Part shown: positions 12,014-46,497 of the stretch, in pieces | Position numbering within the stretch: position 1 is the stretch's first letter | Layout of the letters: every line of letters starts with the position of its first letter | Origin: an uncultured Sphingomonas sp. | GTDB taxonomy: Bacteria; Pseudomonadota; Alphaproteobacteria; Sphingomonadales; Sphingomonadaceae | Reading direction: 5' to 3' | NCBI GenBank assembly: GCA_913775315.1 | Contig: CAJYIX010000013.1 | Coordinates: 62,001 to 126,000, forward strand | DNA: 64,000 nucleotides | Made by a program: the position numbers and the translations under genes | Notes under the pieces: model-generated | Database searches by the model: none | What the model was told of the DNA's origin: nothing | What the model saw: only the letters and a program-made list of their open reading frames with translations

Positions 12014-12023
12014 AAGGGGGAAT

Positions 12024-13415: not shown

Positions 13416-13458
13416 CGCCGCCTAGGTCTTTCCGCGTGGTCTAGCGAGCGGAGGGATC

Positions 13459-13989: not shown

Positions 13990-14009
13990 TCGAAGCGAGT
14001 GGACCGTCC

Positions 14010-16485: not shown

Positions 16486-16938
16486 ATGCCCATCAGCGCC
16501 GCGCCCCCGCCCGCCCTCGTTGCATTTCAAGCTCAGGCGCCGGCCGAAACACGCAACGCCGCGATCATTCGCGCGGCATTCGCGAATTGGAGCGCTGGGC
16601 GGGCCGCTATATTCGACCTGCTCGCCCCCGATTTTCGCTGGACGATCGCCGGCAGCGCACCGTCCGCCGGCACCTATGACCGCCAATCGTTCGACACCCT
16701 GCTCGCGCCGTTCAACGCGCAACTGGCGGCGCCGCTCAAGCCAACCCTGCAGATGCTGGTGGCCGACGGCGACCAGGTTGTGGTTCGCTTCACCGCGACC
16801 GCGCCGCTGAAAGACGGCGGCACCTATCGCAACGACTATGCCTGGTTCCTGACGATGCGCGGCGGGCGGATCGTCGCGGTGACGGCGTTTCTTGACCTTC
16901 CCGCCTTCGAGGCGGTGCGCGATCGCCCGGCCCGTTGA
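16486..16938 (+). CDS. SnoaL/NTF2-like fold protein (ketosteroid-isomerase-like)
   Basis: About 150 residues with an NTF2-like cone fold: an initial helix (NAAIIRAAFANWSAG), LLAPDFRWTIAG, a helix (YDRQSFDTLLAPF) and the terminal strand set QVVVRFTATAPLKDGGTYRNDYAWFLTMRGGRIVAVTAFLD. The LFxxDFxWTIxG pattern is typical of the small SnoaL-like proteins near bacterial housekeeping genes. The substrate is unknown. The ATG at 16486 starts the conserved part; the frame is open 156 bases further upstream, but that stretch is Arg-rich and looks non-coding. It converges on pyrC with a 15-base gap. Confidence 0.72.
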   Translation: MPISAAPPPALVAFQAQAPAETRNAAIIRAAFANWSAGRAAIFDLLAPDFRWTIAGSAPSAGTYDRQSFDTLLAPFNAQLAAPLKPTLQMLVADGDQVVVRFTATAPLKDGGTYRNDYAWFLTMRGGRIVAVTAFLDLPAFEAVRDRPAR

Positions 16939-16953
16939 GCAGCGGGACGACTC

Positions 16954-29815: not shown

Positions 29816-30697
29816 TCAGTCCTGCGGCGCCACGTCGACCGAGACGCGCATGTCCTGCGCGCCCGAGCCGAGCACGATGCCGTCGATCGGCGCGATGTCG
29901 CCGTAATCGCGGCCGATCGCGACGATGACGTGATCCTCCGCCATCCAGATGCCGTTGGTGGGATCGACCCCGACCCAGCCGCGCGCCTCCCCCGCCCAGA
30001 CCAGCACCCAGGCATGGGTGGCGTCCGCGCCCACCAGCCGCGCCTCCCCCGGCGGCGGCAGCGTGCGGAGATAGCCCGAGGCATAGGCGGCGGGCACGCC
30101 CGCGGCGCGGAGACCACAGAGCATGATCTGCGCGAAGTCCTGGCACACCCCGCCCCGCTTGGCGAACGCCTCCGCCGGCGGCGTGTCGACCAGCGTCGCG
30201 GTGGGATCGAAGGCGAACTCGCGCTGGATGCGGCGGGCGAGCTCGATCGCTGCCTCCAGCACCCCGCGCTCGGGCGACAGGTCGGGCGCGCACCACGCCG
30301 CGATCGCCTCGTTCACCGGGATGCGGGGGCTAGGATAGCAATAGGCCGCAGGCGACAGCGGCGACAGATCGCGGCTCATGCGAGCGAGCGCGCCGACCTG
30401 CGCGATCGTCGGATCATGCGCGTCCGGGATCGGGATCGGCCGGTCGACGGTCATGTGCGCGACGCTCTCGATCTCCAGCTCGCGCGTCGGGCGGTCAAGG
30501 ACGAGGCGGGTGACATGCGCCAGCCCCGCCTGTGCCCGCGCCGGCGCGGTGCGGCCGCCGGGGGTGACATTGAGCGCATAATCCTCGACCCGCTGCCCCG
30601 GCCAGTCGATCGGCTGGAGGCGAAGGTTGCAGCGCGCGAAATCGACCGTCTCGGCATAGTCGAACCGCGTCACGTGGCGGATGGCATAGCGCATCAT
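29816..30697 (-). CDS. Transglutaminase-like cysteine peptidase family protein
   Basis: A 293-residue protein with the N-terminal beta domain of bacterial transglutaminase-like proteins (YAIRHVTRFDYAETV, then CNLRLQPIDWPGQRV) and a catalytic core. The triad is visible as Cys in GGVCQDFAQIM, His in DATHAWVLVW and Asp in GVDPTNG. Genes of this type stand next to alpha-E and permuted ATP-grasp genes in many bacteria, as here, and are thought to act on a small peptide or peptide tag. Its start overlaps the alpha-E stop (ATGA at 30697-30694). Confidence 0.9.
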   Translation of the reverse strand: MMRYAIRHVTRFDYAETVDFARCNLRLQPIDWPGQRVEDYALNVTPGGRTAPARAQAGLAHVTRLVLDRPTRELEIESVAHMTVDRPIPIPDAHDPTIAQVGALARMSRDLSPLSPAAYCYPSPRIPVNEAIAAWCAPDLSPERGVLEAAIELARRIQREFAFDPTATLVDTPPAEAFAKRGGVCQDFAQIMLCGLRAAGVPAAYASGYLRTLPPPGEARLVGADATHAWVLVWAGEARGWVGVDPTNGIWMAEDHVIVAIGRDYGDIAPIDGIVLGSGAQDMRVSVDVAPQD

Positions 30698-33197: not shown

Positions 33198-33944
33198 TCA
33201 GTTCCCGTCGGAGATCAGCGTACCCCCGTCGACCACCAGCGTCTGGCCGGTGACGAACCCGCCCGCGCCGCTCGCAAGGAACAGCGCGGCGGCGGCGACC
33301 TCCTCGATCGTGCCGATACGGCGGAGCGGGGTGGCGGCGAGGCGGCGCTCGGTCCGCTCGGGGTCCGACAGGATCGCGCTCGCCCAGTCGGTGCCGATCA
33401 GGCCGGGGGCGATCGCGTTGGCGCGCACGCCCATGGGACCGAACTCGACCGCCAGGTTGCGGGCAAGCTGCGCCAGCGCTGCCTTGGTGATGCCATAGTG
33501 GCCGATGCCTGCATTGCCGCGTAGTCCGGCGAGGCTGGAGAGAAGGACGATGCTCCCCCGCCCCCGCGCCGCCATCGCCGGGGCGATCCGCGCGGTCAGG
33601 CGGATCGGGTGGTCGAGGTTGATCGCATAGAGCGCGGCGCGGGTCTCCTCATCCATGCCGTGCATCGGCCCGGCCGGCCCCGCGATCCCGGCGTTGCAGA
33701 CGAGGATGTCGGCGGCCTCGTCCCCCAGCGCATCGACCTGACCCGCGTCGGCGAGATCGGCGACAATGCCCCGCCCGCCGAGATCGGCGGCGATTCCCTC
33801 GACCGCCGGATCGCGGTCGGCGAGGATCAGCCTCGCCCCTGCCCCCGCGAACAGTCGCGCGATGGCAAGGCCGATCCCGCTCGCCGCGCCGGTGACGAGC
33901 GCGGTGCGGCCGTCGAGGCGGAAGAGGCCAAGCGGGTCACTCAT
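33198..33944 (-). CDS. Short-chain dehydrogenase/reductase (SDR), last gene of catabolic operon one
   Basis: A 248-residue classical SDR. The cofactor motif TGAASGIG is at residues 19-26, NAG is at CNAGIAG, the catalytic Ser is in LLSSLAG and Tyr-x3-Lys is YGITK. Asp in LADRD points to NAD(H). The C-terminal FVTGQTLVVDGGTLISDGN is the family end. The substrate is unknown, perhaps an alcohol or keto intermediate of the neighbouring aromatic pathway. Its start overlaps the DenD-like stop by 8 bases, so it is translationally coupled. Confidence 0.9.
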   Translation of the reverse strand: MSDPLGLFRLDGRTALVTGAASGIGLAIARLFAGAGARLILADRDPAVEGIAADLGGRGIVADLADAGQVDALGDEAADILVCNAGIAGPAGPMHGMDEETRAALYAINLDHPIRLTARIAPAMAARGRGSIVLLSSLAGLRGNAGIGHYGITKAALAQLARNLAVEFGPMGVRANAIAPGLIGTDWASAILSDPERTERRLAATPLRRIGTIEEVAAAALFLASGAGGFVTGQTLVVDGGTLISDGN

Positions 33945-34818
33945 CGAACGCAGCGTCGATCAGCGTGTCGAGGTCGGCGTCTGCACGAAAGCCGAGCGCT
34001 TCGGCCCGCGGCGTGGCGAGCGGCGGATAGCTGCCGAACACGGCGCGAAGCCGCGCGTCCTCGGCATAGGTGAATCCGCGCGTGTCGCCGGTCCGGCCCA
34101 GCGCCTCGACCAGCGCACCGATGCGGACTTGGAGCGCGGGCAGCGTGATCGCGTCTCCCACCGTCGCGTCGGACACCAGCGCATCTACGAGCACCCGCGC
34201 GATCGCCCTTGCCGAGAGGAGCCAGCTGGTCGCTTCTGGCGAAACGGGTACCGTATACGCCTCCCTCGCACGCGCCGCGTGGAACAGGTCGCTGAGGAAT
34301 GCCGAGCCGAAGCCCCCCGCCCCGCGCGGCCGCGCGACGATGCCGGGCAGGCGCAGCGCCATGCCGCCGACCGCTCCCCGCCGCACCGCGTCGGCAAAGG
34401 CGAGCTCGATCATCCGCTTGTGCGTGCCGTAGACGCTCATCGGTGTCGGCACCGTCGCATCGTCGACCGGCGCATCCAGCCGCCCGCCGAACACCGCGAT
34501 CGAACTCGCCAGCACCAGCCGCCGCCCCGCCATCCCCTCAATCAGCGACAGCGGAAGGTCGAGATTGACCGCGCGCGACGCCACCGGATCGGCCGCCGCC
34601 GCGGCGCCCGGCAACGCGGCGAGGTGGAGGACGGCATCCGCCCCGACCACGCGCTCGAACACCGCCGGATCGGCAAGGTCGCGCGCTAGCGCCTCGTACA
34701 CCGGCGGCGCGGCAAAGGCGCGGTCGGTCAGCAGTACGTCATCCACCCCGCGCGCCGCCAGTTCGCGCACCACCGCACGGCCGACGAAGCCGTCGGCGCC
34801 GGTGATCGCGACTCCCAT
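33937..34818 (-). CDS. NAD-dependent epimerase/dehydratase family protein, DenD-like
   Basis: A 293-residue extended SDR. The Gly-rich start is MGVAITGADGFVGRAVV and the active site Tyr-x3-Lys is VYGTHKR. The DLADPAVFERVVGADAVLHLAALPG layout resembles D-erythronate dehydrogenase DenD. Start 34818 is set by the ATGA overlap with the cupin gene; the upstream Arg-rich extension is spurious. In this operon it may oxidise a side-chain alcohol rather than erythronate. That is inference from context. Confidence 0.85.
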   Translation of the reverse strand: MGVAITGADGFVGRAVVRELAARGVDDVLLTDRAFAAPPVYEALARDLADPAVFERVVGADAVLHLAALPGAAAAADPVASRAVNLDLPLSLIEGMAGRRLVLASSIAVFGGRLDAPVDDATVPTPMSVYGTHKRMIELAFADAVRRGAVGGMALRLPGIVARPRGAGGFGSAFLSDLFHAARAREAYTVPVSPEATSWLLSARAIARVLVDALVSDATVGDAITLPALQVRIGALVEALGRTGDTRGFTYAEDARLRAVFGSYPPLATPRAEALGFRADADLDTLIDAAFDE

Positions 34819-35387
34819 CAGCGAAGCTCGTGCGCGTATTCGCCGTCGACGAGGATGAAGGCGACGCGGCAATTCGCGTCCGACCGGTTCGACCAGCCGT
34901 GATTGGTGCCCCGCTGCACGACGATATCGCCTGCGCGCACCACCGTCTCGCCCACGTCCATGATGAGCGTCAGCTCGCCTTCGAGGACGATGCCATAGTC
35001 GATCGTCTCGGTCCGGTGCATCAGCGCGTGGCGGCCCTCGCCGCTGCCGTGCCCTGCCGCCTCGACCGCGCCAATCTCCGCAAAGTGTGCGCGCGCCGCT
35101 TCGGGCGACATGGTGCGGATCTCGTCCCCCTCGGGCGGGATGTCGAGGACGCGGAGGCGCGTGCCGCGCTTCGGCGGGGCAAGAGCCAGCGCGCCTTCGT
35201 CGGGTGTGCTCGCGGCCTCGATCGGGGCGGGGGTGTCGTGGGTCGCCCAGACTTCGTGGAACAGCGGGCCGATCGCGCCGCCGACGCGCTGGACGAAGGC
35301 AACGGGCGCGTCGGATTCGATGATCGCGCGGCCGTCCGCGTCATGCCCGGTGACGATGCGGCGGACGGGGCGATGCGCTTGGTCCAT
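34818..35387 (-). CDS. Cupin-domain protein
   Basis: A 189-residue protein whose C-terminal half is a single cupin barrel: ETIDYGIVLEGELTLIMDVGETVVRAGDIVVQRGTNHGWSNRS, with the G(X)5HXH-like region reduced to TETIDYG plus the second-motif His in GTNHGW. The metal set looks partial. The first 90 residues (RRIVTGHDADGRAIIESD, then LFHEVWATHDTPAPIEA) fit the cupin proteins placed beside aromatic-degradation oxygenases. It may be an isomerase, a dioxygenase-like enzyme or a non-enzymatic binder. Both ends overlap neighbours by ATGA, so it is deeply embedded in operon one. Confidence 0.85.
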   Translation of the reverse strand: MDQAHRPVRRIVTGHDADGRAIIESDAPVAFVQRVGGAIGPLFHEVWATHDTPAPIEAASTPDEGALALAPPKRGTRLRVLDIPPEGDEIRTMSPEAARAHFAEIGAVEAAGHGSGEGRHALMHRTETIDYGIVLEGELTLIMDVGETVVRAGDIVVQRGTNHGWSNRSDANCRVAFILVDGEYAHELR

Positions 35388-36502
35388 CAGATCGGCTCGG
35401 CCACAACCTGGAACATCGCGTGCGTCGCTTTCGCATTGTCGACCGCCGGCCCCTTGCCGAGCTGGCCCATGCAGATGGCGAGGCTCTCGCGCACGATATA
35501 GGCGCAGCGGTCGAACCGGCGGTCGCGGAATGCGGTCAGCGCGGTTTCCATGTCGTCGGCTTTTTCGAGTTCGTCGGCGAGGACGATGCTGTCCTCGATC
35601 GCCATCCCCGCGCCCTGGCCCAGATGCGGCGTCGTCGCATGAACCGCATCGCCGAGCAGCACGACGCGCCCCTTGTGCCACGGCCCCTCGACCAGATGCC
35701 CCTCAAGCGGGCGATAGACCACGCCGTCATCGTCGGTGATGTGCTCGGCCAGCGCGCGGATCGCCGGCGCGCAGTTCGCCAGCTTGCCCCGCATCACCGC
35801 CGCCAGCCCCTTGCGAGGGTAGCGCGGATTGCCGGGCTCGGGCGTGGTCACGTACATGTACATGAGGTCGGTGGAGATCGGCACCAGCCCCACCCCGATC
35901 GGTCCGTTATAGGCATGCATCGCGTCGAGATCGGCGGGCCGCGGCAGGTTGTAGCGCCAGACCGACTGGCCGGTGAAGACCGGCCCAGGCGCCTCGGGCA
36001 GCACGACGGCGCGCGTCTGCGAATAGACGCCGTCCGCCCCGATGACGAGATCATAGCGCCCGCTGCTGCCATCGGAGAAGGTCACGTCGACGCCCGCCCC
36101 GTTATCCTCGATCGCCGTGGCGGTGATGCCCAGCCGCACCTCGGCCCCGCTGGCGATCGTGCGGTCGCCCAGCACCTTGTGCAGCGCGGGGCGCGGTACG
36201 CCCATGCTCGCCGGATAACCATCGACCAGCCGCGGCACCGGCACGCGCGCCACCCGGTCGCCGGCGGGGGTGTAGATCTCCACCGCGTCGAAGCCGACGC
36301 CCGCGGCCAGATACTCGTCGATCAGCCCCAGCTCGGCCATCGCGCGGATGACGTTCGACTGCTGGATGATGCCGACGCCGTACACCGACCAGTCGGGATC
36401 GCGCTCGATCACGGTGACGTTATGGCCCTTGCCGCGAAGCGCGATAGCGGCGGTCAGCCCGCCGATGCCGCCGCCGATGACGAGAATGTCGAGGTTACGC
36501 AT
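35387..36502 (-). CDS. FAD-dependent monooxygenase (aromatic hydroxylase type)
   Basis: A 371-residue group A flavoprotein monooxygenase. The Rossmann motif GGGIGGLTAAIAL begins at residue 10 and the DG-type motif is in DLVIGADGVYSQTR. The FAD ribityl motif is GDAVHATTPHLGQGAGMAIED. The N-terminal Arg/Glu (VIERD) and the length fit salicylate- and 6-hydroxynicotinate-hydroxylase relatives that hydroxylate phenolic rings with NAD(P)H and O2. This would prepare a catechol-type product for the extradiol dioxygenase at 43675. The exact substrate is unknown. The start is 9 bases downstream of the MBL gene stop, and the stop overlaps the cupin start. Confidence 0.92.
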   Translation of the reverse strand: MRNLDILVIGGGIGGLTAAIALRGKGHNVTVIERDPDWSVYGVGIIQQSNVIRAMAELGLIDEYLAAGVGFDAVEIYTPAGDRVARVPVPRLVDGYPASMGVPRPALHKVLGDRTIASGAEVRLGITATAIEDNGAGVDVTFSDGSSGRYDLVIGADGVYSQTRAVVLPEAPGPVFTGQSVWRYNLPRPADLDAMHAYNGPIGVGLVPISTDLMYMYVTTPEPGNPRYPRKGLAAVMRGKLANCAPAIRALAEHITDDDGVVYRPLEGHLVEGPWHKGRVVLLGDAVHATTPHLGQGAGMAIEDSIVLADELEKADDMETALTAFRDRRFDRCAYIVRESLAICMGQLGKGPAVDNAKATHAMFQVVAEPI

Positions 36503-36511
36503 GTCGATCCT

Positions 36512-37444
36512 TCAGAAACGGTCGAGGTCGTTGGCAAGCGCCAGCCTGCCCCGGAAATCCTTGGCGATGCGAGCGCGATAATCGGCGGTGCGCGCCGGAT
36601 CGCTGCCGCCCGCGAAATGCGTCACCGCCACCGCCCTCACCCCCGCCGCGCCCGCGAGCGCGCCCACCGCCTCGGGCGTCAGGTGATGCGTCGACAGGTG
36701 CTGGACCAGCTTTGCGCGGGCGGGCGTGGGCATATTCGGCGAGTTCTGCGCGACCTTGGCGAGCGTGAGGTCGAGGTCGATCATCTCGCTGACCAGCAGG
36801 TCCGCGCCTTTCGCCAGCGCGGCCACTGCCGGGCTGGGCCCGGTGTCGCCGGTATAGGCGATCGACCGGCCGGGCGTGTCGAAGCGATAGGACAGCGACT
36901 TGTACGCGGCGTCCTCGGCGCTGTCGGGGGCGAAGTCGTAATGCGTGTTCTGCGCGGTCCGCACCGTCATGTCGCCGACGCGGACGCTCGCGCCGCCCGC
37001 CAGTTCGACCACGCGGACGATGCTGTCGGGCGCGGGCCAGTGCTGGCCTGGGATGCCGTAGCCCGCCGCGGCGGCGGGCCTGAGCGATGCGACGATGCCG
37101 TCCACCAGCGCTTTCGTCCCCGGCGGTCCGTAGATCGTCAGCACCTCTTGCACATCGGTCTGGTCGCGCAGGCCGATGATCGCGGCCAGCCCGCCGGTAT
37201 GATCGACGTGCAGGTGGCTGAGGAACACCGCCTTCACCTGCGGCAGGCGCAGCCCCGCCTTGGCGAGTTGCTGGGCGGCGCCGTCGCCGGCATCGACCAG
37301 ATAGACCTCGCCCCCGCGCACCAGCGCGTTCGCCGGCTGTGCCCGCTCCGGCGCGCCGACCGGCCCGCCCATCGTGCCGAGCGTGATCCAGGCATCAGCG
37401 GGCGCCTGAACGCCCGCCAGCAGCGCGAGGGCGAGGCCGAGCAT
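36512..37444 (-). CDS. Exported metallo-beta-lactamase-fold hydrolase
   Basis: A 310-residue protein with a signal peptide (MLGLALALLAGVQAPADA). The zinc motif HxHxDH is in SHLHVDHTGG, with later ligands in THYDF, YTGDTG and VTHFAGG. This is the RNase Z/arylsulfatase-like layout rather than a true beta-lactamase. Periplasmic location next to a TonB receptor suggests it cleaves an ester, lactone or sulfate from the imported compound before inner-membrane transport. That role is inferred. The start overlaps the TonB receptor stop (ATGA). Confidence 0.87.
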   Translation of the reverse strand: MLGLALALLAGVQAPADAWITLGTMGGPVGAPERAQPANALVRGGEVYLVDAGDGAAQQLAKAGLRLPQVKAVFLSHLHVDHTGGLAAIIGLRDQTDVQEVLTIYGPPGTKALVDGIVASLRPAAAAGYGIPGQHWPAPDSIVRVVELAGGASVRVGDMTVRTAQNTHYDFAPDSAEDAAYKSLSYRFDTPGRSIAYTGDTGPSPAVAALAKGADLLVSEMIDLDLTLAKVAQNSPNMPTPARAKLVQHLSTHHLTPEAVGALAGAAGVRAVAVTHFAGGSDPARTADYRARIAKDFRGRLALANDLDRF

Positions 37445-39774
37445 CAGAAGTCGAACCCGACGCGAACGCCATAGGTGCGCGGTGGGCGCAGCGTGCCGAC
37501 GGGGAAGTCGAGGATCGGCCGCGCGCCCGCGCGCGCCAGCACTTCCGCATCCTCGATATTGTTGACGAAGCCGGTGAGGCTCCATCCCTCGGCGCGCAGC
37601 GTCACATAGGCGTCGGACATCATGAAGCCGTCCTGCTTCGTCTCGGGCCGGTAGTTGGCGTCGAGAAAGCGGCTGGTCTCGATATTGGTCCGCGCGCCGA
37701 ACACAAGGTCGAGCGACGACGCGAGCGGGAAGGTCCGCTCATAACCCAGGTTGAACGCCCATTCCGGCGACTGGACCGTCGGCTTGCCCGAACAGTCGAT
37801 GTCGTAGAAGCGCGCGCCGTTGATCCCCGGATTGGCCGCGCGGCTGCCCAGCGTCCGGCATCCGGTCGCCACCGGCGCGCCGGTGGGCGAGAAGTTGGCA
37901 GTGGTCAGCTCGTCGTAGCGCCCGTTCAGATATTGCGCGACCGCGGTGAACAGGTCGTTGCGGCTGGGGGCGAAACGCATCTCGACCTCACCGCCGTAAA
38001 TGCGCGACTTGCCCGCATTGACGGTGATCGACCCCTGCGCGATCAGCCCGGTGCCGGTCGGCACGCCGCCGACGAAGGTGATCTGCTGGTCCTTATAGTC
38101 CCAGTAGAACGCCTCGACATTCAGTTGCAGCTTGTTGCCGAAGAAGCGGTTCTTGGCGCCCGCAGTGTACGCGGTCAGCGTCTCGGGCGCGAAGGTGTTG
38201 TTCGGCGGCTGCGCGACGAAGAACCCGCCCGACTTGAAGCCCGTCGCGACGTTGGCATAGAGGAGCGAGGCGGGGCCGGCGTCGAGCTCGACCCCCGCCT
38301 TCCACGTGAACTTCTCGAACGTCAGCGCGCCGGTGAAGGGCGCCCCGAGCGCGGGCTCGATCGGGCCGGGCAGGCCGCCCGCCGCCGTCCGCGTCCGTTG
38401 CCGCTTGTCCTCGCGCGTGTAGCGACCGCCTGCGACCAGGCGGAAAGCGTCGGTCACGTCGAAGGTGAGCTGGCCGAAGCCGGCGATGCTCTCGGTCCGC
38501 AGATTGGGCGCGAACCGGGTCGTCGACAGGTTGCCCTGGCGGAAGAAATTCACCGCCTGCTGCTTTTCGTCGAAGAAGAACGCGCCGACGACGTAGCGCA
38601 GCCGCTGGTCCTCGTTTGACGAGAGCCGCGCCTCGACCGACATCTGCTCGGCCAGATCGGTCACGTCGCCCTGGAAACCCGGCAGATAGGTGCGGAAATT
38701 GGTGTCGGACCGGCGCCAGGCGGGAATGATCGTGAGCTTGCCGAAGCCCATGTCGCCCTCGACCGTCGCCGACAGGCCGTAGAACTTGTTGTCGAGGAAG
38801 CCGTCGCTCCCCGCCTGCGCGATGCAGCCCGAGCGCACGAAGCCGCCGAACCCGCCGCAGAAGGGCGGCGCGAAGATGCCCGCGGCGAACTGTGCCACCG
38901 CTGCCTGGGCCCGCGGGTCGGAGACGCTGACGCGGTCCTCGAGCGGGGGTGCGTTGAGACCGGCATAGGGGAGCAGCACCGCCCCAGCGCCCTTGCCGTG
39001 CTGGTTATAGTAATCGCCGACGATCGTCATCGACCACATGTCGGACGGCTGGATCAGGATCGACGCGCGCACCGCCTCGCCCCGCTCGTCGTCATAACCG
39101 TCGCTGATATAGCCGTCGCGATCGACCACCTGGCCCGCGACGCGCAGCGCCACGACCTGTCCCAGCGGCAGGTTGATCGCGCCCGACGCCTTTTTCGCAT
39201 CGTAATTGCCATATTCGAGCAGACCCTCGACGCCGAACTTGCCCAGCACCGGCTTGCGCGGCAGCACGTTGATCGCGCCGCCCGTTGCGTTGCGGCCATA
39301 GAGCGTGCCCTGCGGCCCCTTCACCACCTCGACGCGTTCGAGGTCGTAGAAGACGCCCGCGGGCGCAGTCGGGCGGCCGACATAGACGCCGTTGAAGTTG
39401 AACGCGACGGCGTTCTCAGAGAACGAGTTCTGCGAATTGGTGCCGACCCCGCGCAGGAAGAAGCTGGTCGTGCCGCCAGTCGGCTGGACGACGAGCGCGG
39501 GGACGAGCTTGCCGAGGTTCGCGGTCTCGGTGATGCCCGCATTCGCAAGCGCGTCGCCGGTGACGGCGGTGACCGCGACGGCAGCGCGCTGAAGCGACTC
39601 CGACCGGCGCTGTGCGGTGACGACGATATCCTGAAGCCCCTCCCCGTCGTCGGGGGCCTGTGCGGCGGCCTCGACCGGGTCGGCGGGGGCCGAATTGGTC
39701 ACCTGCTGCGCCCATGCCGGCTGCGCGGCCAGTGCCAGCGCCATCGCGGTCCCGAGACCCGAAATCCTTCGCAT
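37444..39774 (-). CDS. TonB-dependent outer-membrane receptor (second copy), head of catabolic operon one
   Basis: A 776-residue receptor. Signal peptide ends at AWAQ, the TonB box-like DIVVTAQRRSESLQRAAV follows, then the plug with VEVVKGPQGTLYGRNATGGAINV and a barrel ending in VRVGFDF with the terminal Phe. The start at 39774 gives the signal peptide; a much longer open frame covers the LysR and FAH region on the opposite strand and is spurious. Its ligand is presumably the aromatic substrate of the operon, because all five downstream genes are coupled behind it. The 126-base gap to the divergent LysR gene carries the control sites. Confidence 0.93.
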   Translation of the reverse strand: MRRISGLGTAMALALAAQPAWAQQVTNSAPADPVEAAAQAPDDGEGLQDIVVTAQRRSESLQRAAVAVTAVTGDALANAGITETANLGKLVPALVVQPTGGTTSFFLRGVGTNSQNSFSENAVAFNFNGVYVGRPTAPAGVFYDLERVEVVKGPQGTLYGRNATGGAINVLPRKPVLGKFGVEGLLEYGNYDAKKASGAINLPLGQVVALRVAGQVVDRDGYISDGYDDERGEAVRASILIQPSDMWSMTIVGDYYNQHGKGAGAVLLPYAGLNAPPLEDRVSVSDPRAQAAVAQFAAGIFAPPFCGGFGGFVRSGCIAQAGSDGFLDNKFYGLSATVEGDMGFGKLTIIPAWRRSDTNFRTYLPGFQGDVTDLAEQMSVEARLSSNEDQRLRYVVGAFFFDEKQQAVNFFRQGNLSTTRFAPNLRTESIAGFGQLTFDVTDAFRLVAGGRYTREDKRQRTRTAAGGLPGPIEPALGAPFTGALTFEKFTWKAGVELDAGPASLLYANVATGFKSGGFFVAQPPNNTFAPETLTAYTAGAKNRFFGNKLQLNVEAFYWDYKDQQITFVGGVPTGTGLIAQGSITVNAGKSRIYGGEVEMRFAPSRNDLFTAVAQYLNGRYDELTTANFSPTGAPVATGCRTLGSRAANPGINGARFYDIDCSGKPTVQSPEWAFNLGYERTFPLASSLDLVFGARTNIETSRFLDANYRPETKQDGFMMSDAYVTLRAEGWSLTGFVNNIEDAEVLARAGARPILDFPVGTLRPPRTYGVRVGFDF

Positions 39775-39900
39775 CGCATCCTCCCATCTGCCACGCCCGA
39801 TACGATGCCGGGCATGTTCATGGCTGAAAGGATGGCGCGCGAGAATCGATCGGTCTAACGCATTGTTCTGATCGTCTGTCACAAACGAAAGTGATCGCTG
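39775..39900. promoter_or_regulatory. Divergent control region of TonB operon and first LysR gene
   Basis: The 126 bases between the divergent starts hold TTCTGATCGT at 39866-39875, similar to one arm of the palindrome in front of the second LysR gene (TTCAGATCGTGAA). I found no full palindrome of that type here. A GCCCGATACGATGCCGGGC imperfect dyad lies near 39796-39814. Which protein binds is unknown. Confidence 0.4.
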
Positions 39901-40797
39901 ATGCGGCTCGACCAGTTCGATCTCAACCTGCTCGTCGCGTTCAACGTGTTGGTCGAGGAGCGCAACGTGACGCGCGCCGCCGCGCGGATGAACGTGACGC
40001 AATCGGCGATGAGCGCGGCGCTGAAGCGACTGCGAGAGGCGTTCGCGGACGAGATCCTGGTCCAGCATGGCCGCCGGATGCTGCCCACCTCGAACGCGCT
40101 GGCGCTCGCGCCGCAGGTGTCGGCGGCGATCGTCGAACTGCGCAGCATCCTGTCGACCGGCATGGCGTTCGATCCGGCGGAGGCGCGGCGCGTGTTCCGC
40201 CTCGTCGCGTCGGACTATATCGCCACCGTCCTCATCTCGCCGCTGCTCGCCCGGCTGGAGGCGGAGGCACCGCACGTTCGTCTCGACATCACGCTGCCGC
40301 GCAGTTCGATCGGCGCGATGCTCCAGGATGGGGAGATCGACCTCATCATCTCGCCCGAGACGTTCCTCGAGGCCGAGCATCCGCGCGAGCTGGTGTTCGA
40401 GGAGCGGCACGTCGTCGTCGGTTGTGCGAGCAACCCGGTGTTCGCCGCGCCGATGACCCCGGACGCGTTTTATGCCTGCGGCCATGTCGCGGTCAGCGTG
40501 TCGCGCGACGGCACCTTCATCGACAACTGGCTGCGCCAGCAGGGCGACCGGCGGCGAATCGAGGTGACATGCGCTTCCTTCATCCAGGCGCCGTGGATGC
40601 TGCCCGGGACGACGCGGCTGGCGCTGATGCACGAGCGGCTGGCGCGGGTGATGGCGCCGGGCCTCGGCCTCGCGATCGCGGAGGCGCCGTTCGACCTGCC
40701 GGTAATGCGCGAGATGATGCAGCACCACCGCGCGCGCAGCACCGACCGCGGGCTGGCGTGGCTGCGACAGCGGATCGTGGAGCAGGTCGCCGGCTAG
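39901..40797 (+). CDS. LysR-family transcriptional regulator, first copy
   Basis: A 298-residue regulator. The N-terminal winged HTH (about 5-65) reads FDLNLLVAFNVLVEERNVTRAAARMNVTQSAMSAALKRLR, which has the NodD/PcpR-like LNLLVAF-plus-SAMSxAL signature. The C-terminal half is the LysR effector domain. It is transcribed divergently from the TonB-led operon it probably controls. It is the same length as the LysR gene at 44685 and shares ASDYIAT and VVG motifs with it, so the pair looks like a duplication. The stop shares the four bases CTAG with the FAH stop on the other strand. Confidence 0.92.
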   Translation: MRLDQFDLNLLVAFNVLVEERNVTRAAARMNVTQSAMSAALKRLREAFADEILVQHGRRMLPTSNALALAPQVSAAIVELRSILSTGMAFDPAEARRVFRLVASDYIATVLISPLLARLEAEAPHVRLDITLPRSSIGAMLQDGEIDLIISPETFLEAEHPRELVFEERHVVVGCASNPVFAAPMTPDAFYACGHVAVSVSRDGTFIDNWLRQQGDRRRIEVTCASFIQAPWMLPGTTRLALMHERLARVMAPGLGLAIAEAPFDLPVMREMMQHHRARSTDRGLAWLRQRIVEQVAG

Positions 40798-41732
40798 GCT
40801 TGCACCACCCGCTGATCGATCACCCCGAACGGCCCCGCGCGCATCGCGACGCGCGTGCCAAAGCGCAGGAAACCCGTCTCCGGCTTGCCCCCCGCGATCA
40901 TCTCGATCGCGCGGCGCTCCGAGATACAGGTCGAGCCGACCGTCGCATGTTCGGCATTCGACACGGTGCCTGAGCCGATGATCGTTCCGGCGGGCAGGTC
41001 GCGCGTCGCCGCCGCGTGGGCGACGAGCTCGTGGAAACCGTACGCCATCGCCCGGCCGTTCGGATGCCCGAACCACTGCCCGTCGACCTCGACCGTGAGC
41101 GGCAGGCAGACGCGCCCGTCCGCCCACGCCTCGCCCAGTTCATCCGGCGTCACCGCGAACGGCGCGGCGCTGCACGCGGGCTTGGCCTGTACCCAGCCGA
41201 AGCCGGTCTTCATCTCAGCGGGCGCGAGGGTGCGCAGCGACCAGTCGTTGATGAGGACAACCAGCCGGAGTTGATCGAGAGCATCGGCGGCGGACACGCC
41301 CATCGGCACGTCGCCGGTTACCACACCGAACTCGCCCTCGAAATCGATACCGTCCGCCTCGCTCGGCAAGGGCACGTCGTCGGTCGGGGCGATGAAGCGG
41401 TGGCTCATCCCCTGGTACATCAGCGGCTTGGTCGTCTCGATCGGCGGCAGGTTGAACGCCGTCTGCATGAGGTCGCCGTGCGTCGGAAACGCCGATCCAT
41501 CGAGCCACTGCCACGCGCGCGGCAAGGGTGCGGCGAAGTCCTCCGCCGCCACAGTTTCGCCCGTCTCGGCAGCCTCGATTGCGGCGGCGAGCGCATCCTG
41601 CGCCGCGTCCCAGGTGTCGAGCGCGGATTGCAGCGTCGGGAACCCCGTCACCGGCGCGACCCGCGTGCCGTCGCGGGCGACCGCCACCAGCGTCCCGTCG
41701 CGCCCGCCGCGCTTCAGCGTCGCGAGCCTCAT
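40794..41732 (-). CDS. FAH-family hydrolase (acylpyruvate/fumarylpyruvate hydrolase-like), second copy
   Basis: A 312-residue metal-dependent C-C hydrolase. The metal-binding acids are in DFEGEFGVVTGD with the INDWSLR Asp, and the AGTIIGSGTVSN loop is the same as in the copy at 19066. Start 41732 (MRLATLKRGGRDG) overlaps the cyclase stop by ATGA. As the last gene of catabolic operon two, it would be suited to split a beta-diketo acid into a carboxylic acid and pyruvate or fumarate. This activity is inferred. It ends within the last codon of the convergent LysR gene. Confidence 0.88.
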   Translation of the reverse strand: MRLATLKRGGRDGTLVAVARDGTRVAPVTGFPTLQSALDTWDAAQDALAAAIEAAETGETVAAEDFAAPLPRAWQWLDGSAFPTHGDLMQTAFNLPPIETTKPLMYQGMSHRFIAPTDDVPLPSEADGIDFEGEFGVVTGDVPMGVSAADALDQLRLVVLINDWSLRTLAPAEMKTGFGWVQAKPACSAAPFAVTPDELGEAWADGRVCLPLTVEVDGQWFGHPNGRAMAYGFHELVAHAAATRDLPAGTIIGSGTVSNAEHATVGSTCISERRAIEMIAGGKPETGFLRFGTRVAMRAGPFGVIDQRVVQA

Positions 41733-42517
41733 GCGCCTTCCCCCTCGAAGATCGCGACCGCGCGCGTCCAGCCCGCCGACCCGCGCTTCACCTTGGCGGG
41801 GAAGCACGACACCATGAAGCCCGAGGGCGGCAGCTGGTCGAGGTTGGTCAGCTTCTCCATGTGGCAATAGCCGATCTCGAGCCCCGCCTTGTGCCCCTCC
41901 CAGATCAGCGAGGTATCGCCGGTCTCGGCCACGCGCTTCGCCGTCGCCCCGAACGGCGCGTCCCAGCTCCACGCATCGGTGCCCGTCACGCGGACGCCGC
42001 GCGACGTGAGGTAGAGCGTCGCCTCGCGCCCCATGCCGACACCCTTGGCGAGGAAATCCGGCCCGCCCAGCGCCGCGCCCGCGGCGGTGTTGACGAGGAC
42101 GATCTCCAGCGGCTTCAGCTCATGCCCGATCCGCGCCAGTTCGGCCTCGACCTCGGCAGCGGTCACGACGTGGCCGTCGGGTAGATGGCGGAAGTCGAGC
42201 TTCACGCCGGGCTGGAAGCACCAATCGAGCGGCACCTCGTCGATCGTCATCGCGGGCTTTCCGCCATCCTGCGTCGGGTGATAGTGCCATGGCGCGTCGA
42301 GGTGCGTGCCGTTGTGCGTCGTCAGCGTCAGCGTCTCCGACGCGGCGAAGCCCTGCCCCCCGACCATCTGCTCCGCAGTCAGGCCGGGAAAGAAGTTCTG
42401 CACCTCCGCCACCGTTTCGGCATGCGTCTGATACTGGATCGTCGGGCGCATGAACGGCGGATCGGTGATGACATCGGGGTCGAGCGTGATCGACAGGTCG
42501 AGGATGCGGCGGGTCAT
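41729..42517 (-). CDS. Cyclase-family metal hydrolase (kynurenine formamidase-like)
   Basis: A 262-residue protein of the cyclase family. The metal motif H-x-G-T-H-x-D-A-P-x-H is complete in THNGTHLDAPWHYHP. ILDLSITLDPDVITDPPFMRP begins the protein and KLTNLDQLPPSGFMVSCFPAKV ends it, both as in the family. Members hydrolyse amides, lactones or isatins. Here it might open a lactone or amide formed after ring cleavage, which is inference. The start overlaps the alpha/beta hydrolase stop by 4 bases. Confidence 0.9.
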   Translation of the reverse strand: MTRRILDLSITLDPDVITDPPFMRPTIQYQTHAETVAEVQNFFPGLTAEQMVGGQGFAASETLTLTTHNGTHLDAPWHYHPTQDGGKPAMTIDEVPLDWCFQPGVKLDFRHLPDGHVVTAAEVEAELARIGHELKPLEIVLVNTAAGAALGGPDFLAKGVGMGREATLYLTSRGVRVTGTDAWSWDAPFGATAKRVAETGDTSLIWEGHKAGLEIGYCHMEKLTNLDQLPPSGFMVSCFPAKVKRGSAGWTRAVAIFEGEGA

Positions 42518-43671
42518 GCCGTCCGTCCGCCCAGCGTCTCGGCGAACCAATCGGCGATATAGTCGCGGCCGTAGCTCATATTGTCGGCGCCGACGTGCTC
42601 CACCCCGCCCTCGCGCGCGGTGAACAGCTTCAGTTCGCGCTTCGGGGAATTGACGAGCTGGTCGTAGCAGTCGTGCGCATATTGCACGCTGATCTGGCGA
42701 TCCTCGGCCCCGTGGGTGACGAGGAAGGGCACCTTCACGCCGTCCATATGGCCGTTGAGGTTCATCCCCTCCGCCTTGGCGAGGAAGTCGTCCATGTCTT
42801 CGGCCCCGAACGCCCACATCACGTGCGCCCAGTAATGCGGCACGGGGTTCTCCCCCTCGCGCTTCAGCCGCTTCTGCTGCACTTCGGCCCAGTTGTGGTT
42901 GGCGCCCCACACCGCGCCGCTGGCGAAGCGCGGTTCGTAGGCGACGGCGCGCGGCGCGAAATGACCGCCGAGCGAAATGCCGGTCATGCCGATCCTGGCG
43001 GGATCGACGTCGGGCTGGCGCTCCAGCCAGTCCACCGCCTTCGACGCCCAATGCTCGCTGTGCGGATCGACGGGCAGGTTCTGAAGGCGAAGCGCCTCGC
43101 CCGAGCCGGGCTGGTCGACGCACAGCGTCGAGACCCCGCGCCGCGCCAGCGCCTCTGGCAGGCGCGACCAGTAGAGCAGTTCCTTGCAGCTATCGAGGCC
43201 GTTGCAATAGACCACCACCGGGTGCGGCCCCGGTCCGGCTGCGCGGGTGTAGAGCGCGGGCATCGTGCCGGTGTCGAGCGGCACTTCGACCCGCTCGCGG
43301 TTGATCTTGCCCAGCGCAGTCGACTTGTCGAACGTCTCGCGTGCCTTTCGATACGTCTCCATCCGGCCGGGATGGCCGTGGCCCTGCATCCGCTCTGCGG
43401 TGAAGAGGTAGAGCGACGCGCGCTCCAGCTTGTCGCTGGCGGACAGCGCGCGGCCCTTGGCTTCGTCCTCGGCGGCCAGCTCAATGAGCTTGTCGCCCAT
43501 CGCCGCCCATTGCTTCATGAAGGCGGGCGTGCCGGCGTCGCCGCCGCCGGCCGCGGCGTCCTTGATCGGCTGGCACATGTCGACGATCTCGCCGATCCGC
43601 CCGCCGCTCTCCATCGCGATCGCGACGCTCAGGTTCCAGATATAGTTCGGGAACATCTCGAACAGCGCCAT
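42514..43671 (-). CDS. Alpha/beta hydrolase with helical N-terminal cap, C-C hydrolase type
   Basis: A 385-residue hydrolase. The first 130 residues are helical (cap), followed by a core with the nucleophile elbow GISLGG, the Asp in THGAEDRQIS and the catalytic His near GGVEHVGADNM. The layout recalls 2,6-dihydroxypseudooxynicotine hydrolase and related DUF1100-type enzymes that break a C-C bond next to an aromatic ring or keto group. It follows the extradiol dioxygenase by 3 bases, which fits hydrolysis of a ring-cleavage product or of a side chain. Substrate unknown. Confidence 0.87.
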   Translation of the reverse strand: MALFEMFPNYIWNLSVAIAMESGGRIGEIVDMCQPIKDAAAGGGDAGTPAFMKQWAAMGDKLIELAAEDEAKGRALSASDKLERASLYLFTAERMQGHGHPGRMETYRKARETFDKSTALGKINRERVEVPLDTGTMPALYTRAAGPGPHPVVVYCNGLDSCKELLYWSRLPEALARRGVSTLCVDQPGSGEALRLQNLPVDPHSEHWASKAVDWLERQPDVDPARIGMTGISLGGHFAPRAVAYEPRFASGAVWGANHNWAEVQQKRLKREGENPVPHYWAHVMWAFGAEDMDDFLAKAEGMNLNGHMDGVKVPFLVTHGAEDRQISVQYAHDCYDQLVNSPKRELKLFTAREGGVEHVGADNMSYGRDYIADWFAETLGGRTA

Positions 43672-43674
43672 GGA

Positions 43675-44577
43675 TCAGGCCTCCGCCGCCACGAACAGGC
43701 CCTTGTCGGCCTCCGGGTGCGGCATCGTCTGCGGGCCGCCGACGCCGATGCCCCACTGGTCCATCACCTGCGGGCCGGGGACGTGCACCTTGTGCTCGTG
43801 CGTGTCGAAATCCACGTCCTCCAGTTCGGAGGTATATTCGACCGCAAAGCCGTTCGGCGTCGTGAAATAGCTGAACGTGTTGTTGCCCGCGGTGTGGCGG
43901 CCCGGACCCCAGCGCAGGTCGGTGCCCTTCTTCTTCAGCCGGTTGATGCCGCGCATCATGTCGTCGACCGTCAGCATGTCGTAGGCGACGTGGTTGAGGC
44001 AGGGCGGGCCGGGCAGGAAGGCGAAGCGGTGATGCGCCGAATTGCAGCGCAGGAACGCCATAAAATCGCCCAGCCAGTCCGACAGGCGGAAGCCGAGCAC
44101 GTCCTGGAAGAACTGCACCGCCGCCTTGTGGTCGGGCGAGTGGAGGACGATGTGGCTGATCTTCTGCGGCACGCCGTCCCAGCGCTGCATCTCGCGCGCG
44201 GTGCCGCGCTCGACGCCCGCCGACACCTCGAACGGCAGGCCGTCGGGCGAGAAGAAGCGGAAGCCGTAGCCGCCGCCGAGCGTGGTGAGCGCGCGCGGCG
44301 CGAAGACCACCTTGCAGCCCGCCGCCACGACCTTGTCGTGCAGCGCGTCGACATCGGCGTCGCTGTCGGCGGCGAGCGCGATCACGTCGATGCGCTTCTC
44401 CTCGGCGGCGCGCAGGCGGACGACGTAAAGCTCGTCATTCCCCTCGGCGGCGAAGTGCCACATGCCGTCCTTCTCGCCGACTTCCTTGAGGCCCCAGACG
44501 TCGCGATAGAAATTGCGCTCGGCATCAAGGTCGGTGACGCCATAGCCGACATAACGGATTTCGGTGACGCGGCTCAT
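43675..44577 (-). CDS. Two-domain VOC extradiol dioxygenase (catechol-2,3-/BphC-like)
   Basis: A 300-residue protein with two vicinal-oxygen-chelate modules (YVGYGVTDLDAERNFYRDVWG and ISHIVLHSPDHKAAVQFFQDVLGF). The iron ligands of type I extradiol dioxygenases are in the C-terminal module: His in HIVLHSPD, His in LNHVAYDML and Glu in GFAVEYTSE. It should open a catechol-type ring by meta-cleavage with Fe(II) and O2. A strong GGAGAG ribosome site precedes the start. It leads catabolic operon two, divergent from the second LysR gene. It could instead act on a non-catechol substrate, as some VOC enzymes do. Confidence 0.88.
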   Translation of the reverse strand: MSRVTEIRYVGYGVTDLDAERNFYRDVWGLKEVGEKDGMWHFAAEGNDELYVVRLRAAEEKRIDVIALAADSDADVDALHDKVVAAGCKVVFAPRALTTLGGGYGFRFFSPDGLPFEVSAGVERGTAREMQRWDGVPQKISHIVLHSPDHKAAVQFFQDVLGFRLSDWLGDFMAFLRCNSAHHRFAFLPGPPCLNHVAYDMLTVDDMMRGINRLKKKGTDLRWGPGRHTAGNNTFSYFTTPNGFAVEYTSELEDVDFDTHEHKVHVPGPQVMDQWGIGVGGPQTMPHPEADKGLFVAAEA

Positions 44578-44657
44578 GCTCGCTCTCCTGTTGATTGGTT
44601 GCGCGCTGGATACCGGGCGAAGGGGTGATTGAGAAAATCTTTGTTTCGATGCATTCG

Positions 44658-44674
44658 CATTCAGATCGTGAATG
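44658..44674. promoter_or_regulatory. LysR-type palindromic site before second LysR gene
   Basis: CATTCA (44658-44663), spacer GATCG, and TGAATG (44669-44674) form a perfect 6-base inverted repeat. The inner TTCAGATCGTGAA fits the T-N11-A LysR box. It lies 10 bases upstream of the LysR ATG and about 80 bases upstream of the dioxygenase start on the opposite strand, a normal place for autoregulation and activation. Confidence 0.55.
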
Positions 44675-44684
44675 GGAGAGCGCG

Positions 44685-45581
44685 ATGCGCTTCAAGGGTC
44701 TCGACCTAAACCTGCTCGTCGCCTTCGACGCGCTGCTCGCCGAGCGGAGCGTGTCGCGCGCGGCGGATCGGGTGAATCTCAGCCAGCCGGCGATGAGTAA
44801 TGCGCTTACCCGCCTCAGGCGCTTCTTCGCCGACGACCTGCTCGTCGCCATCGGCAAGCGCATGTACCCGACCCCGCTGGCCGAGGCGCTGGGGCCGCAG
44901 GTGCGCGCCGCGCTCGGCACGATGGAGGGGCTGATCGCCGCGTCCCGCCATTTCGATCCCGCCACCTCGGCGCGCAACTTTCGCATCATGGCGTCGGACT
45001 ATATCGCCACCGCCGTCCTCTTCCCGCTGATCGCGCGGCTGGCAGTCGAGGCGCCGAATGTCCGCATCGACCTGCTCCTGCCCAGCGAGCGGCGGTTCGA
45101 GCTGATCGAGAGCGGCGGGATCGACCTGCTCATCACGCTCGAGCCGTATCTCACGCCCGAGATGCCGTCGGATGCGCTGCTCGAGGACGAATATGTTGTC
45201 GTCGGGCGGGCGGGGCATCCGGCGCTGGCGCGGCCGCTCTCGACCGAGGCGATGCTTGCCTGGCCGCACGTCCTCGTCGCGATCGGCGAGGGGCGGTTGC
45301 CGAGCTTCGGCGACGCCTATCTCGAGCGGCTCGGGCTTTCGCGCCGGGTGGCGGCGGTCGCGCCGTCGTTCACGCCGCTGCCTTGGCTGCTGATCGAAAC
45401 CGACTGGCTGACCTTGTTGCAGAAGCGGCTGGCGACGCTGCTCGCCGCGCGCTTCGACCTTGCCATCGCTGCGCCGCCGGTGCCGATCCCGCCGCTTGCG
45501 GAAATGGCGCAGTACCACCTGACCCGCCGCGGCGATCCGGGGCTGCGCTGGCTGATCGAGCGGATCAGGGCGGCGGGATAG
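44685..45581 (+). CDS. LysR-family transcriptional regulator, second copy
   Basis: A 298-residue regulator. The HTH region reads GLDLNLLVAFDALLAERSVSRAADRVNLSQPAMSNALTRLRRFFADDLLV, the same NodD/PcpR-like type as the copy at 39901. ATG 44685 follows GGGAGAG and gives the right N-terminus; a longer frame start at 44595 adds 30 residues of leader including the palindromic site and is unlikely. It probably controls the divergent dioxygenase-hydrolase operon. Its last 17 bases overlap the D-2-hydroxyacid dehydrogenase gene tail to tail. Confidence 0.92.
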   Translation: MRFKGLDLNLLVAFDALLAERSVSRAADRVNLSQPAMSNALTRLRRFFADDLLVAIGKRMYPTPLAEALGPQVRAALGTMEGLIAASRHFDPATSARNFRIMASDYIATAVLFPLIARLAVEAPNVRIDLLLPSERRFELIESGGIDLLITLEPYLTPEMPSDALLEDEYVVVGRAGHPALARPLSTEAMLAWPHVLVAIGEGRLPSFGDAYLERLGLSRRVAAVAPSFTPLPWLLIETDWLTLLQKRLATLLAARFDLAIAAPPVPIPPLAEMAQYHLTRRGDPGLRWLIERIRAAG

Positions 45582-46497
45582 GCGTCGGCAGCGGCCGCTG
45601 GCCAAGGAACGCGTCGATATTGTCGAGAACCAGCGCCGCCATCGCCGCACGTGTCTCGACCGTCGCGCTGGCGATATGCGGCGTCAGCATTGTGCGGTCG
45701 CTGTCGATCAATGCCCCGGGCACGTTCGGTTCGTCCGCGAACACGTCGAGGGCGGCACCGGCAATGCGCTGTTCGCGGATCGCCTCGACCAGCGCGTCCT
45801 CGTCCACCACCGATCCGCGCGCGACGTTGACGAGCACGCCGCCCGGCCCGAGCGCTTCAAGCACGCGCGCGTCGATCAGGTGCCGCGTCTCCGCCGAGGC
45901 AGCGACCGCGACGATCAGCACGTCGCTTGCCGCCGCGAGCGAGGCTGCGTCGGGATGGAAGGGCAGGTCCACCGGCTTTTGCGACCGCCCGGTATAGGCG
46001 ACCGGCCCGAACGCGCGTAGCCGGTCGGCGATCGCCGAGCCGATCCGCCCGAGCCCGACGATCCCGAACCGCTGCCCGGTCACTTTCCGCGCCAGCGGCA
46101 GGTCGCCGTTCGCCCAAGCGCCGCTGCGCGCATGCGCGTCGGCATGCGGCAAGTCGCGCAGCAGGCCAATGACGAGGCCGATAGCGAGGTCGGCCACGTC
46201 GTCGGTCAGCACGCCCGGCGTGTTGGTCACGCTCACGCCCCGCGCGGCGGCATGGGCGATATCGACCTTGTCATAGCCGACGCCGTTGATCGCAATCAGC
46301 CCGAGATTCGCCAGCGCTTCAATGAGGTCGCGCGGGGCGCCGGTCTGGCCGCCGGTCACGATGATGCGCACGCGGTCGGCATGGGCGGCGAGCCAGTCGG
46401 CATCGGGATCGACCCGCACTCGGTCGCCGCGTGCGTCGAGCGCAGCTTCGAGATCGGCGGACATGGGCGACAGTTGGAGAATTGTAGGGTTGGTCAT
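45565..46497 (-). CDS. D-2-hydroxyacid dehydrogenase (glyoxylate/hydroxypyruvate reductase-like)
   Basis: A 310-residue NAD(P)-linked enzyme. The Rossmann motif is GLGRIGSAI. The catalytic Arg, Glu and His are in NVARGSVVDEDALV, DVFADEPN and TPHIAS. GVGYDKVDIAHAAARGV is the family substrate-binding region. It would reduce a 2-keto acid, for instance one released by the FAH-type hydrolase. That link rests on position alone. It ends 17 bases inside the LysR gene on the other strand and starts 123 bases from a small membrane gene. Confidence 0.9.
   Translation of the reverse strand: MTNPTILQLSPMSADLEAALDARGDRVRVDPDADWLAAHADRVRIIVTGGQTGAPRDLIEALANLGLIAINGVGYDKVDIAHAAARGVSVTNTPGVLTDDVADLAIGLVIGLLRDLPHADAHARSGAWANGDLPLARKVTGQRFGIVGLGRIGSAIADRLRAFGPVAYTGRSQKPVDLPFHPDAASLAAASDVLIVAVAASAETRHLIDARVLEALGPGGVLVNVARGSVVDEDALVEAIREQRIAGAALDVFADEPNVPGALIDSDRTMLTPHIASATVETRAAMAALVLDNIDAFLGQRPLPTPIPPP

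Follow-up and report, generated by a model that had tools for sequence, protein, structure and literature searches.

A Sphingomonas gene cluster as the probable counterpart of the flavonoid A-ring-cleaving fde and ifc systems

Introduction

Which compound is degraded by the enzymes of a two-operon gene cluster found in an uncultured Sphingomonas sp.? The cluster lies at positions 33198 to 46497 of a 64,000-nucleotide stretch of DNA, here called the window (assembly GCA_913775315.1, contig CAJYIX010000013.1, positions 62,001 to 126,000). A sequence-only reading, made without database searches, had described it as an aromatic catabolic cluster of unassigned substrate, with the fde operon of Herbaspirillum as its nearest comparator and with N-heteroaromatic compounds left open. 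We propose, with a probability of about 0.75, that its enzymes degrade flavonoids by cleavage of the A ring and that it is, in sphingomonads, the counterpart of fde from Herbaspirillum and ifc from Variovorax. A flavonoid-type A-ring pathway is well supported, and C-glycosylated flavonoids, the leading candidates, are probably its substrates.

Results

Relation of the cluster to FdeC-type loci

Gene calls were checked by Pfam and NCBIfam scans, open frames and translations (Table 1). The frames confirmed the two minus-strand operons of the sequence-only reading, each with a divergent 298-codon LysR gene on the plus strand, and all the genes that it had named are open frames with the expected domain. 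Operon 1 encodes a TonB-dependent receptor, a metallo-beta-lactamase-fold (MBL) hydrolase, for which we chose the start codon, an FAD monooxygenase (FMO), a cupin, an NAD-epimerase-type dehydrogenase and a short-chain dehydrogenase (SDR). Operon 2 encodes a ring-cleaving dioxygenase of the VOC family, an alpha/beta hydrolase, a cyclase-family hydrolase and a hydrolase of the FAH family. Neighbours within an operon overlap by 1-8 bases or are separated by 3-9 bases, and 126 and 107 bases separate operon 1 from LysR1 and operon 2 from LysR2, respectively.

The description of the fde operon used here is that of PMC8552027, PMC11303751, PMC11069340 and PMC10799723. Loci of this type were collected with an alignment of five VOC proteins of the FdeC type; a Rieske gene adjoins the genes for four of these, but not the gene for the Roseomonas protein. 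Scanning genome contigs with this alignment gave 512 relatives, of which the best 80, mostly from Burkholderiales genera by title, were kept and compared with the window proteins by tblastn (1e-10); several of these loci are short. The data showed that the window hydrolase and FMO were each matched in 77 of the 80 loci, the cyclase-family protein in 68, the FAH protein in 63, the epimerase in 47 and the cupin in 45. Matches to LysR1 (35/80), LysR2 (30/80), the SDR (21/80), the MBL hydrolase (6/80) and the TonB receptor (6/80) were fewer. Among the 64 loci of at least 20 kb, the hydrolase was matched in 62 and the FMO in 61. Identities to the locus proteins were 55-60% for the hydrolase, 49-73% for the cyclase-family protein, 44-51% for the cupin and 37-44% for the epimerase, and all six enzymes, the FMO and FAH protein included, were within 37-73% of proteins around FdeC-type dioxygenases from Burkholderiales.

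At the locus of Herbaspirillum sp. ASV7, a LysR gene is followed on the opposite strand by genes for a Phenol_MetA porin, hydrolase, VOC, Rieske protein, FMO, MFS protein, cyclase, cupin, FAH protein and epimerase. This ten-gene operon agrees in its make-up with fdeA-J, the naringenin operon. FdeA is described as a phenol-degradation-type protein, FdeD as a Rieske protein and FdeE as an FMO (PMC8552027), and the VOC, hydrolase and cupin loci of ifc have relatives in fde, that of the VOC being FdeC (PMC11069340); the remaining letters were presumptively given to the ASV7 genes by gene order. The window FMO, which has the motifs GxGxxG, DG and GD, and the FdeE-position FMO of ASV7 are reciprocal best hits (43% identity).

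The regulators point in the same direction. The FdeR-position LysR had seven matches in the window genome, with LysR1 first (39%, 5.6e-60), LysR2 second (37%, 2.2e-53) and the third at 1e-5; LysR1 and LysR2 share 45% identity. Responses of FdeR to naringenin, chrysin and daidzein are described in PMC10799723. A repeat search for a shared LysR operator in both intergenic regions yielded short arms only.

The ring-cleaving dioxygenase

The window VOC aligns end to end with PDB 3b59 (1.1e-151) and more weakly with BphC-type dioxygenases (1han, 9.4e-19). The 3b59 protein, which we take to be from Novosphingobium aromaticivorans, has a generic VOC name in the database, and a full-text literature search combining 3B59, the species and 'dioxygenase' gave no match. 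In the alignment to BphC, residues H142, H196, E247, H182/H183, H228 and Y237 were present; the 2-His-1-Glu metal site and catalytic His and Tyr of type I (VOC) extradiol enzymes (H142, H196, E247, H183 and Y237) align with BphC. We propose that this protein performs extradiol A-ring cleavage at C8-C8a, which would offer a likely function for a solved, generically named dioxygenase subfamily.

The window VOC shares 26-37% identity with VOC proteins of the FdeC type. Searched with the FdeC-position VOC, the window genome gave the window VOC as the sole match (34% over part). Searched with the window VOC, the ASV7 genome gave another VOC as the best match (37%, 2.3e-19) and the FdeC-position VOC as the second (34%, 1.5e-13). 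The same genome holds a second adjacent pair of FMO (32%) and VOC (37%) genes (G357:C110:100802-102405), whose VOC is nearer the window VOC than the FdeC-position VOC is. A rhizobial VOC group of about 34% identity was set aside; the single region examined is a different cluster, with 3-HPP-hydroxylase-type, FAH and amidohydrolase genes.

The hydrolases

In the alpha/beta hydrolase, S233, D324 and H359 are invariant in an alignment of 10 sequences, and its PDB matches are DHPON hydrolase (2jbw) and an Ayg1-type enzyme (8qd7). The cyclase-family protein has the motif HxGTHxDxPxH and its nearest PDB entry is isatin hydrolase (1.9e-6); that of the FAH protein is 3lzk. The MBL protein, which the sequence-only reading had called a periplasmic hydrolase, has an N-terminus judged hydrophobic by eye; its nearest PDB entry is the MBL-fold arylsulfatase 8gyg, aligned end to end over 295 residues, and the metal motif HxHxDH is present. 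The earlier description can be refined: this is perhaps an exported arylsulfatase-like enzyme with a putative role in sulfate removal. Its gene was matched in 3 of 25 sphingomonad loci. The active-site residues of the VOC, hydrolase, cyclase, FMO and MBL proteins presumably have the roles usual in their families.

Occurrence of the module in relatives

A search of 61 genomes gave 10 loci in 9 other genomes with a VOC of at least 68% identity. All 10 were examined, as stretches of at most 20 kb, and absences are local to these stretches. The VOC and hydrolase were found in all 10 loci, the FMO and FAH protein in 9, the cupin in 7, the cyclase in 6, the epimerase in 5, the SDR in 3 and the MBL protein in 2, and a LysR1- or LysR2-like gene was found in 9. 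One locus (L031) keeps the entire arrangement at 83-99% identity. The FMO, VOC and hydrolase genes are consecutive on one strand in 7 of the 10, four of which also have the cyclase and FAH genes. There were 12 plasmid records with a VOC above 70% identity; these three genes are contiguous in 7 of the 8 examined, the exception being Croceicoccus, with Novosphingobium P6W counted by its second copy. Genes of both operons, whose co-conservation the sequence-only reading had made decisive for its claim, occur together in relatives; the one-strand copies speak against the twin-operon layout as the defining feature. Related hydrolase and FMO genes accompany other VOC types in Azospirillum, Burkholderia, Massilia, Diaphorobacter and Deinococcus.

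A paralogous cluster is present on Novosphingobium aromaticivorans pNL2 (15710-36846), with relatives of the hydrolase (45%), FMO (44%), FAH protein (60%), SDR and epimerase, together with a hisD-type gene and several VOC genes.

Link to C-glycoside deglycosidases

The neighbourhoods of several copies were informative about the substrate. Genes for C-glycoside deglycosidase, GMC, Gfo/Idh and GH3 proteins surround the module in Croceicoccus and Sphingobium TomTYG65, the second copy of Novosphingobium P6W adjoins a cut deglycosidase beta-subunit gene and GMC and Gfo/Idh genes, and in Deinococcus aetherius a deglycosidase pair and a GMC gene stand beside the module. The small subunit belongs to PF19906, the family of C-glycoside deglycosidase beta subunits; the TIM-barrel subunit has 8qvc and chains related to it as its matches.

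Co-occurrence was analyzed in 298 family genomes, with tests that ignore relatedness. The VOC was found in 48 genomes at 1e-100 (at least 65% identity in 37), so the module occurs in part of the sphingomonads, and PF19906 was found in 17. The VOC was present in 16 of the 17 deglycosidase genomes, the window genome included (Fisher 1.7e-15, odds ratio 198), and, by genus, in 11 of 12 deglycosidase genera (2.1e-8). None of the 11 genomes having only a VOC of 50-54% identity, a diverged sister group, has PF19906, which suggests that this group has another substrate.

Seven C-glycoside genes form a set on contig 17 of the window genome itself, with 62-83% identity to that of Croceicoccus marinus, and a second deglycosidase pair is found on contig 9 (L149, G000:C9:1-16000, 3466-8131, plus strand). 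The contig 17 set (L148, G000:C17:110001-130000, 9542-18016, minus strand) consists of GMC, small subunit, TIM barrel, Gfo/Idh, GH3 and deglycosidase beta and alpha genes. About 2.3 kb on from the contig 9 pair is another FMO gene, NF005313-like, below the cut-off and 38% identical to the window FMO. Genes for degradation of hydroxybenzoate were also located: contig 13 carries the PobA gene, at a distance of about 28 kb from that of the VOC, and contig 21 the LigAB genes. The module of Sphingomonas sp. R1 has pobA, ligA and the gene for the beta-subunit partner of LigA within a few genes, and ligA and its partner also stand close to the module in Novosphingobium P6W.

Neighbouring genes

LysR2 stands between operon 2 and the 2-hydroxyacid dehydrogenase gene, which the sequence-only reading had placed in the pathway, and the dehydrogenase gene and LysR2 are convergent. 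The dehydrogenase was matched in 1 of the 10 sphingomonad loci and 1 of the 80 FdeC-type loci, and it was set aside as a pathway enzyme; it probably lies outside the pathway. A transglutaminase-like gene and a circularly permuted ATP-grasp/Alpha-E gene (29816-33137, minus strand) adjoin the cluster, a neighbourhood that is kept in L031; they are probably unrelated to it. Further away, at 20181-23567 on the plus strand, is a gene for a large hybrid histidine kinase with PAS, GAF and receiver domains.

Table 1. Genes of the cluster, with window coordinates and supporting matches
Gene product	Coordinates	Strand	Evidence and proposed role
SDR dehydrogenase	33198..33944	-	Pfam adh_short_C2 3.2e-55; proposed late step after pyranone opening
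NAD-epimerase-type dehydrogenase (FdeJ position)	33937..34818	-	Pfam Epimerase 9.4e-20
Cupin (FdeH position)	34818..35387	-	Pfam Cupin_2 1.6e-9; IfcD-like role proposed
FAD monooxygenase, FdeE-like	35387..36502	-	NF005313 479.7 bits, over cut-off; proposed flavonoid C8 hydroxylase
Putative exported MBL-fold hydrolase, arylsulfatase-like	36512..37444	-	8gyg 1.3e-86; motif HLHVDH
TonB-dependent receptor, 776 aa	37444..39774	-	Pfam TonB barrel 1.7e-33, Plug 5.6e-13
LysR1, FdeR-like, divergent from operon 1	39901..40797	+	best genome match to FdeR-position LysR
FAH-family hydrolase (FdeI position)	40794..41732	-	Pfam FAA_hydrolase 7.1e-32; 3lzk 3.9e-76
Cyclase-family metal hydrolase (FdeG position)	41729..42517	-	Pfam Cyclase 5.1e-35; motif; proposed lactone hydrolase
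FrsA/DHPON-type alpha/beta hydrolase (FdeB position)	42514..43671	-	2jbw 3.5e-19; 8qd7 7.9e-15; proposed C4a-C5 hydrolase
VOC extradiol dioxygenase, 3b59 subfamily	43675..44577	-	3b59 1.1e-151; 1han 9.4e-19; proposed A-ring cleavage
LysR2, FdeR-like, divergent from operon 2	44685..45581	+	second-best genome match to FdeR-position LysR
2-hydroxyacid dehydrogenase	45565..46497	-	Pfam 2-Hacid_dh_C 4.3e-46

Discussion

From the gene content, sequence relations, residues, neighbourhoods and co-occurrence observed here we infer every reaction, the substrate and the order of steps. A glycosylated (probably C-glycosylated), perhaps sulfated flavonoid would enter via the TonB receptor, the exported arylsulfatase-like MBL enzyme would strip sulfate, and C-glycoside deglycosidases encoded elsewhere in the genome would remove the sugar. 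The FMO would hydroxylate C8, adjacent to the 7-OH, and the VOC would cleave C8-C8a, whereby the heterocycle would become a lactone that carries a 2-oxo acid as side chain. A cut at C4a-C5 by the alpha/beta hydrolase would leave a 4-hydroxy-2-pyranone bearing the B ring; the fragment released would be oxaloacetate from 5-hydroxyflavonoids and a C4H4O4 oxo acid from daidzein-type compounds. The cupin, cyclase-family protein, FAH protein and two dehydrogenases would open and shorten the pyranone to a hydroxybenzoate, which would feed into PobA and LigAB, and LysR1 and LysR2 would act as flavonoid-sensing activators. The proposed scheme needs no hydratase or aldolase, and the absence of these two enzymes noted by the sequence-only reading is therefore expected.

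Published ifc masses can be compared with this scheme: 8-hydroxydaidzein 269.0455, the ring-cleaved product 301.0352, the pyranone 203.035 and the IfcD products 177.0555 and 193.0505 (PMC11069340). Computed masses showed that C8-C8a cleavage followed by C4a-C5 hydrolysis yields 301, 203 and a C4H4O4 fragment, and that pyranone opening with CO2 loss yields 177; the assignment of the atoms of the ifc intermediates to the proposed cuts is our own. The ifc authors could not assign a gene to the 301-to-203 step (X2 to X3; PMC11069340). The DHPON/Ayg1-type hydrolase is a natural candidate for the C-C cut, being matched in nearly all FdeC-type loci, and the cluster thus nominates an enzyme for this (iso)flavonoid step.

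A complete route for C-glycosylated, partly sulfated flavonoids may be drawn, in which extracytoplasmic desulfation would be followed by sugar oxidation and C-C deglycosylation, Rieske-free C8 hydroxylation, A-ring opening by the 3b59 subfamily and retro-Claisen oxaloacetate release by the DHPON/Ayg1-type hydrolase. We advance it tentatively, its chance of being right in full falling a little short of even. Sulfated flavonoids are a possibility raised by the arylsulfatase-like gene. If the route is true, the retro-Claisen hydrolase would fill the ifc X2-to-X3 step. The module is given a testable substrate, and C-glycoside deglycosylation would be joined with aromatic ring cleavage in one genome.

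The same chemistry could act on a related fused-ring polyphenol, for instance a xanthone, chromone or anthraquinone C-glycoside of the mangiferin, aloesin or carminic-acid type. One relative of the module is from the rhizosphere of Rheum palmatum, a plant rich in anthraquinones. According to literature abstracts, the substrates of C-glycoside deglycosidases include carminic acid and mangiferin besides flavonoids. However, the FMO, hydrolase and regulators indicate a relation to fde, for which naringenin is the substrate studied, and PobA and LigAB suit a 4-hydroxyphenyl B ring; we regard such a substrate as unlikely. An isoflavone pathway of the ifc kind, in place of one for flavones or flavanones, would account for the shared enzyme kinds, and IfcA relatives and ifc genes are reported from Sphingopyxis (PMC11069340). 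IfcB, however, is 65.8% identical to FdeC (PMC11069340), far above the identity of the window VOC to FdeC-type proteins, which makes this reading, too, rather improbable.

A route for lignin-type aromatics or N-heteroaromatics has very little chance of being correct. The sequence-only reading had raised N-heteroaromatics from the adjacency of the cyclase-family and DHPON-like genes; nicotine breakdown involves DHPON hydrolase, and isatin hydrolase belongs to the cyclase family. Both genes are usual members of FdeC-type loci, and the nicotine and isatin enzymes are much weaker matches (3.5e-19 and 1.9e-6) than the FdeC-type locus proteins, so the N-heteroaromatic route was set aside. Xanthine-dehydrogenase-type genes lie about 11 kb from the module in Sphingobium yanoikuyae, and this family includes N-heteroaromatic hydroxylases. 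Genes near the module in relatives, among them pobA, ligAB, one for the alpha subunit of a ring-hydroxylating oxygenase and one named vanA, would also fit lignin aromatics, but the FMO and regulators are fde-like.

Several observations weigh against the flavonoid A-ring reading or parts of it. The window VOC was rejected as an FdeC orthologue because the reciprocal best hit fails. A Rieske gene (FdeD) was found by Pfam nowhere among the operon genes of the cluster, whose gaps are at most 9 bases, the search covering the cluster and not the rest of the genome; such a lack is not unique, the FMO genes of Roseomonas and Deinococcus having no annotated Rieske neighbour. Herbaspirillum sp. ASV7, not SmR1, provided the reference operon. 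In Variovorax, disruption of the DHPON-like locus 59470 left daidzein degradation unaffected (PMC11069340), which counts against an essential early role of the hydrolase and leaves a later step undecided, and the IfcD product published at 193.05 contains one oxygen more than the scheme accounts for. The window-genome deglycosidases lie on other contigs than the cluster. The control LigB (79 genomes) was present in 14 of the 17 deglycosidase genomes (1.1e-6, odds ratio 15.5), and general catabolic capacity therefore explains part of the VOC-deglycosidase link; within the LigB genomes, that overlap was 13 of 14 (3.5e-5). With the window genome left out, 10 of 36 genomes had LigB on the contig of the VOC and within 15.5 kb of it; for the deglycosidase this held in 5 of the 15 genomes that have both it and the VOC. 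Near some copies, a vanA-named gene, a ring-hydroxylating oxygenase subunit and xanthine-dehydrogenase-type genes are clues that do not favour flavonoids.

The flavonoid A-ring-cleaving cluster proposed here can be set beside three known systems. With fde of Herbaspirillum seropedicae SmR1, judged from ASV7 and 79 further loci, it shares the FMO, DHPON-type hydrolase, cyclase, cupin, FAH protein, epimerase and FdeR-like LysR, which upholds the comparator of the sequence-only reading for these genes and not for the VOC and Rieske protein. Unlike fde, it has a VOC from another subfamily, a TonB receptor in place of the porin, an extra arylsulfatase-like MBL gene, two operons with two LysR genes, and no MFS gene. 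We consider that it works like fde, yet we do not file it as an fde operon because the VOC is non-reciprocal, the Rieske gene is absent from the cluster and a TonB receptor takes the place of a porin. With ifc of Variovorax sp. V35, it shares by published description the FMO, VOC, DHPON-like hydrolase and cupin kinds (PMC11069340), and it differs in the distance of its VOC (26-37%) from FdeC-type proteins, ifc being known here from published identities. The full-text matches listed included no published sphingomonad cluster of this type, but PMC11069340 describes IfcA relatives and ifc genes in Sphingopyxis. Contigs 17 and 9 of the window genome carry systems of the CGDB, PF19906 kind (CarABC/PurABC/DgpABC type), and several relatives have them next to the module; in the window genome they lie outside the window and would serve a separate, upstream function.

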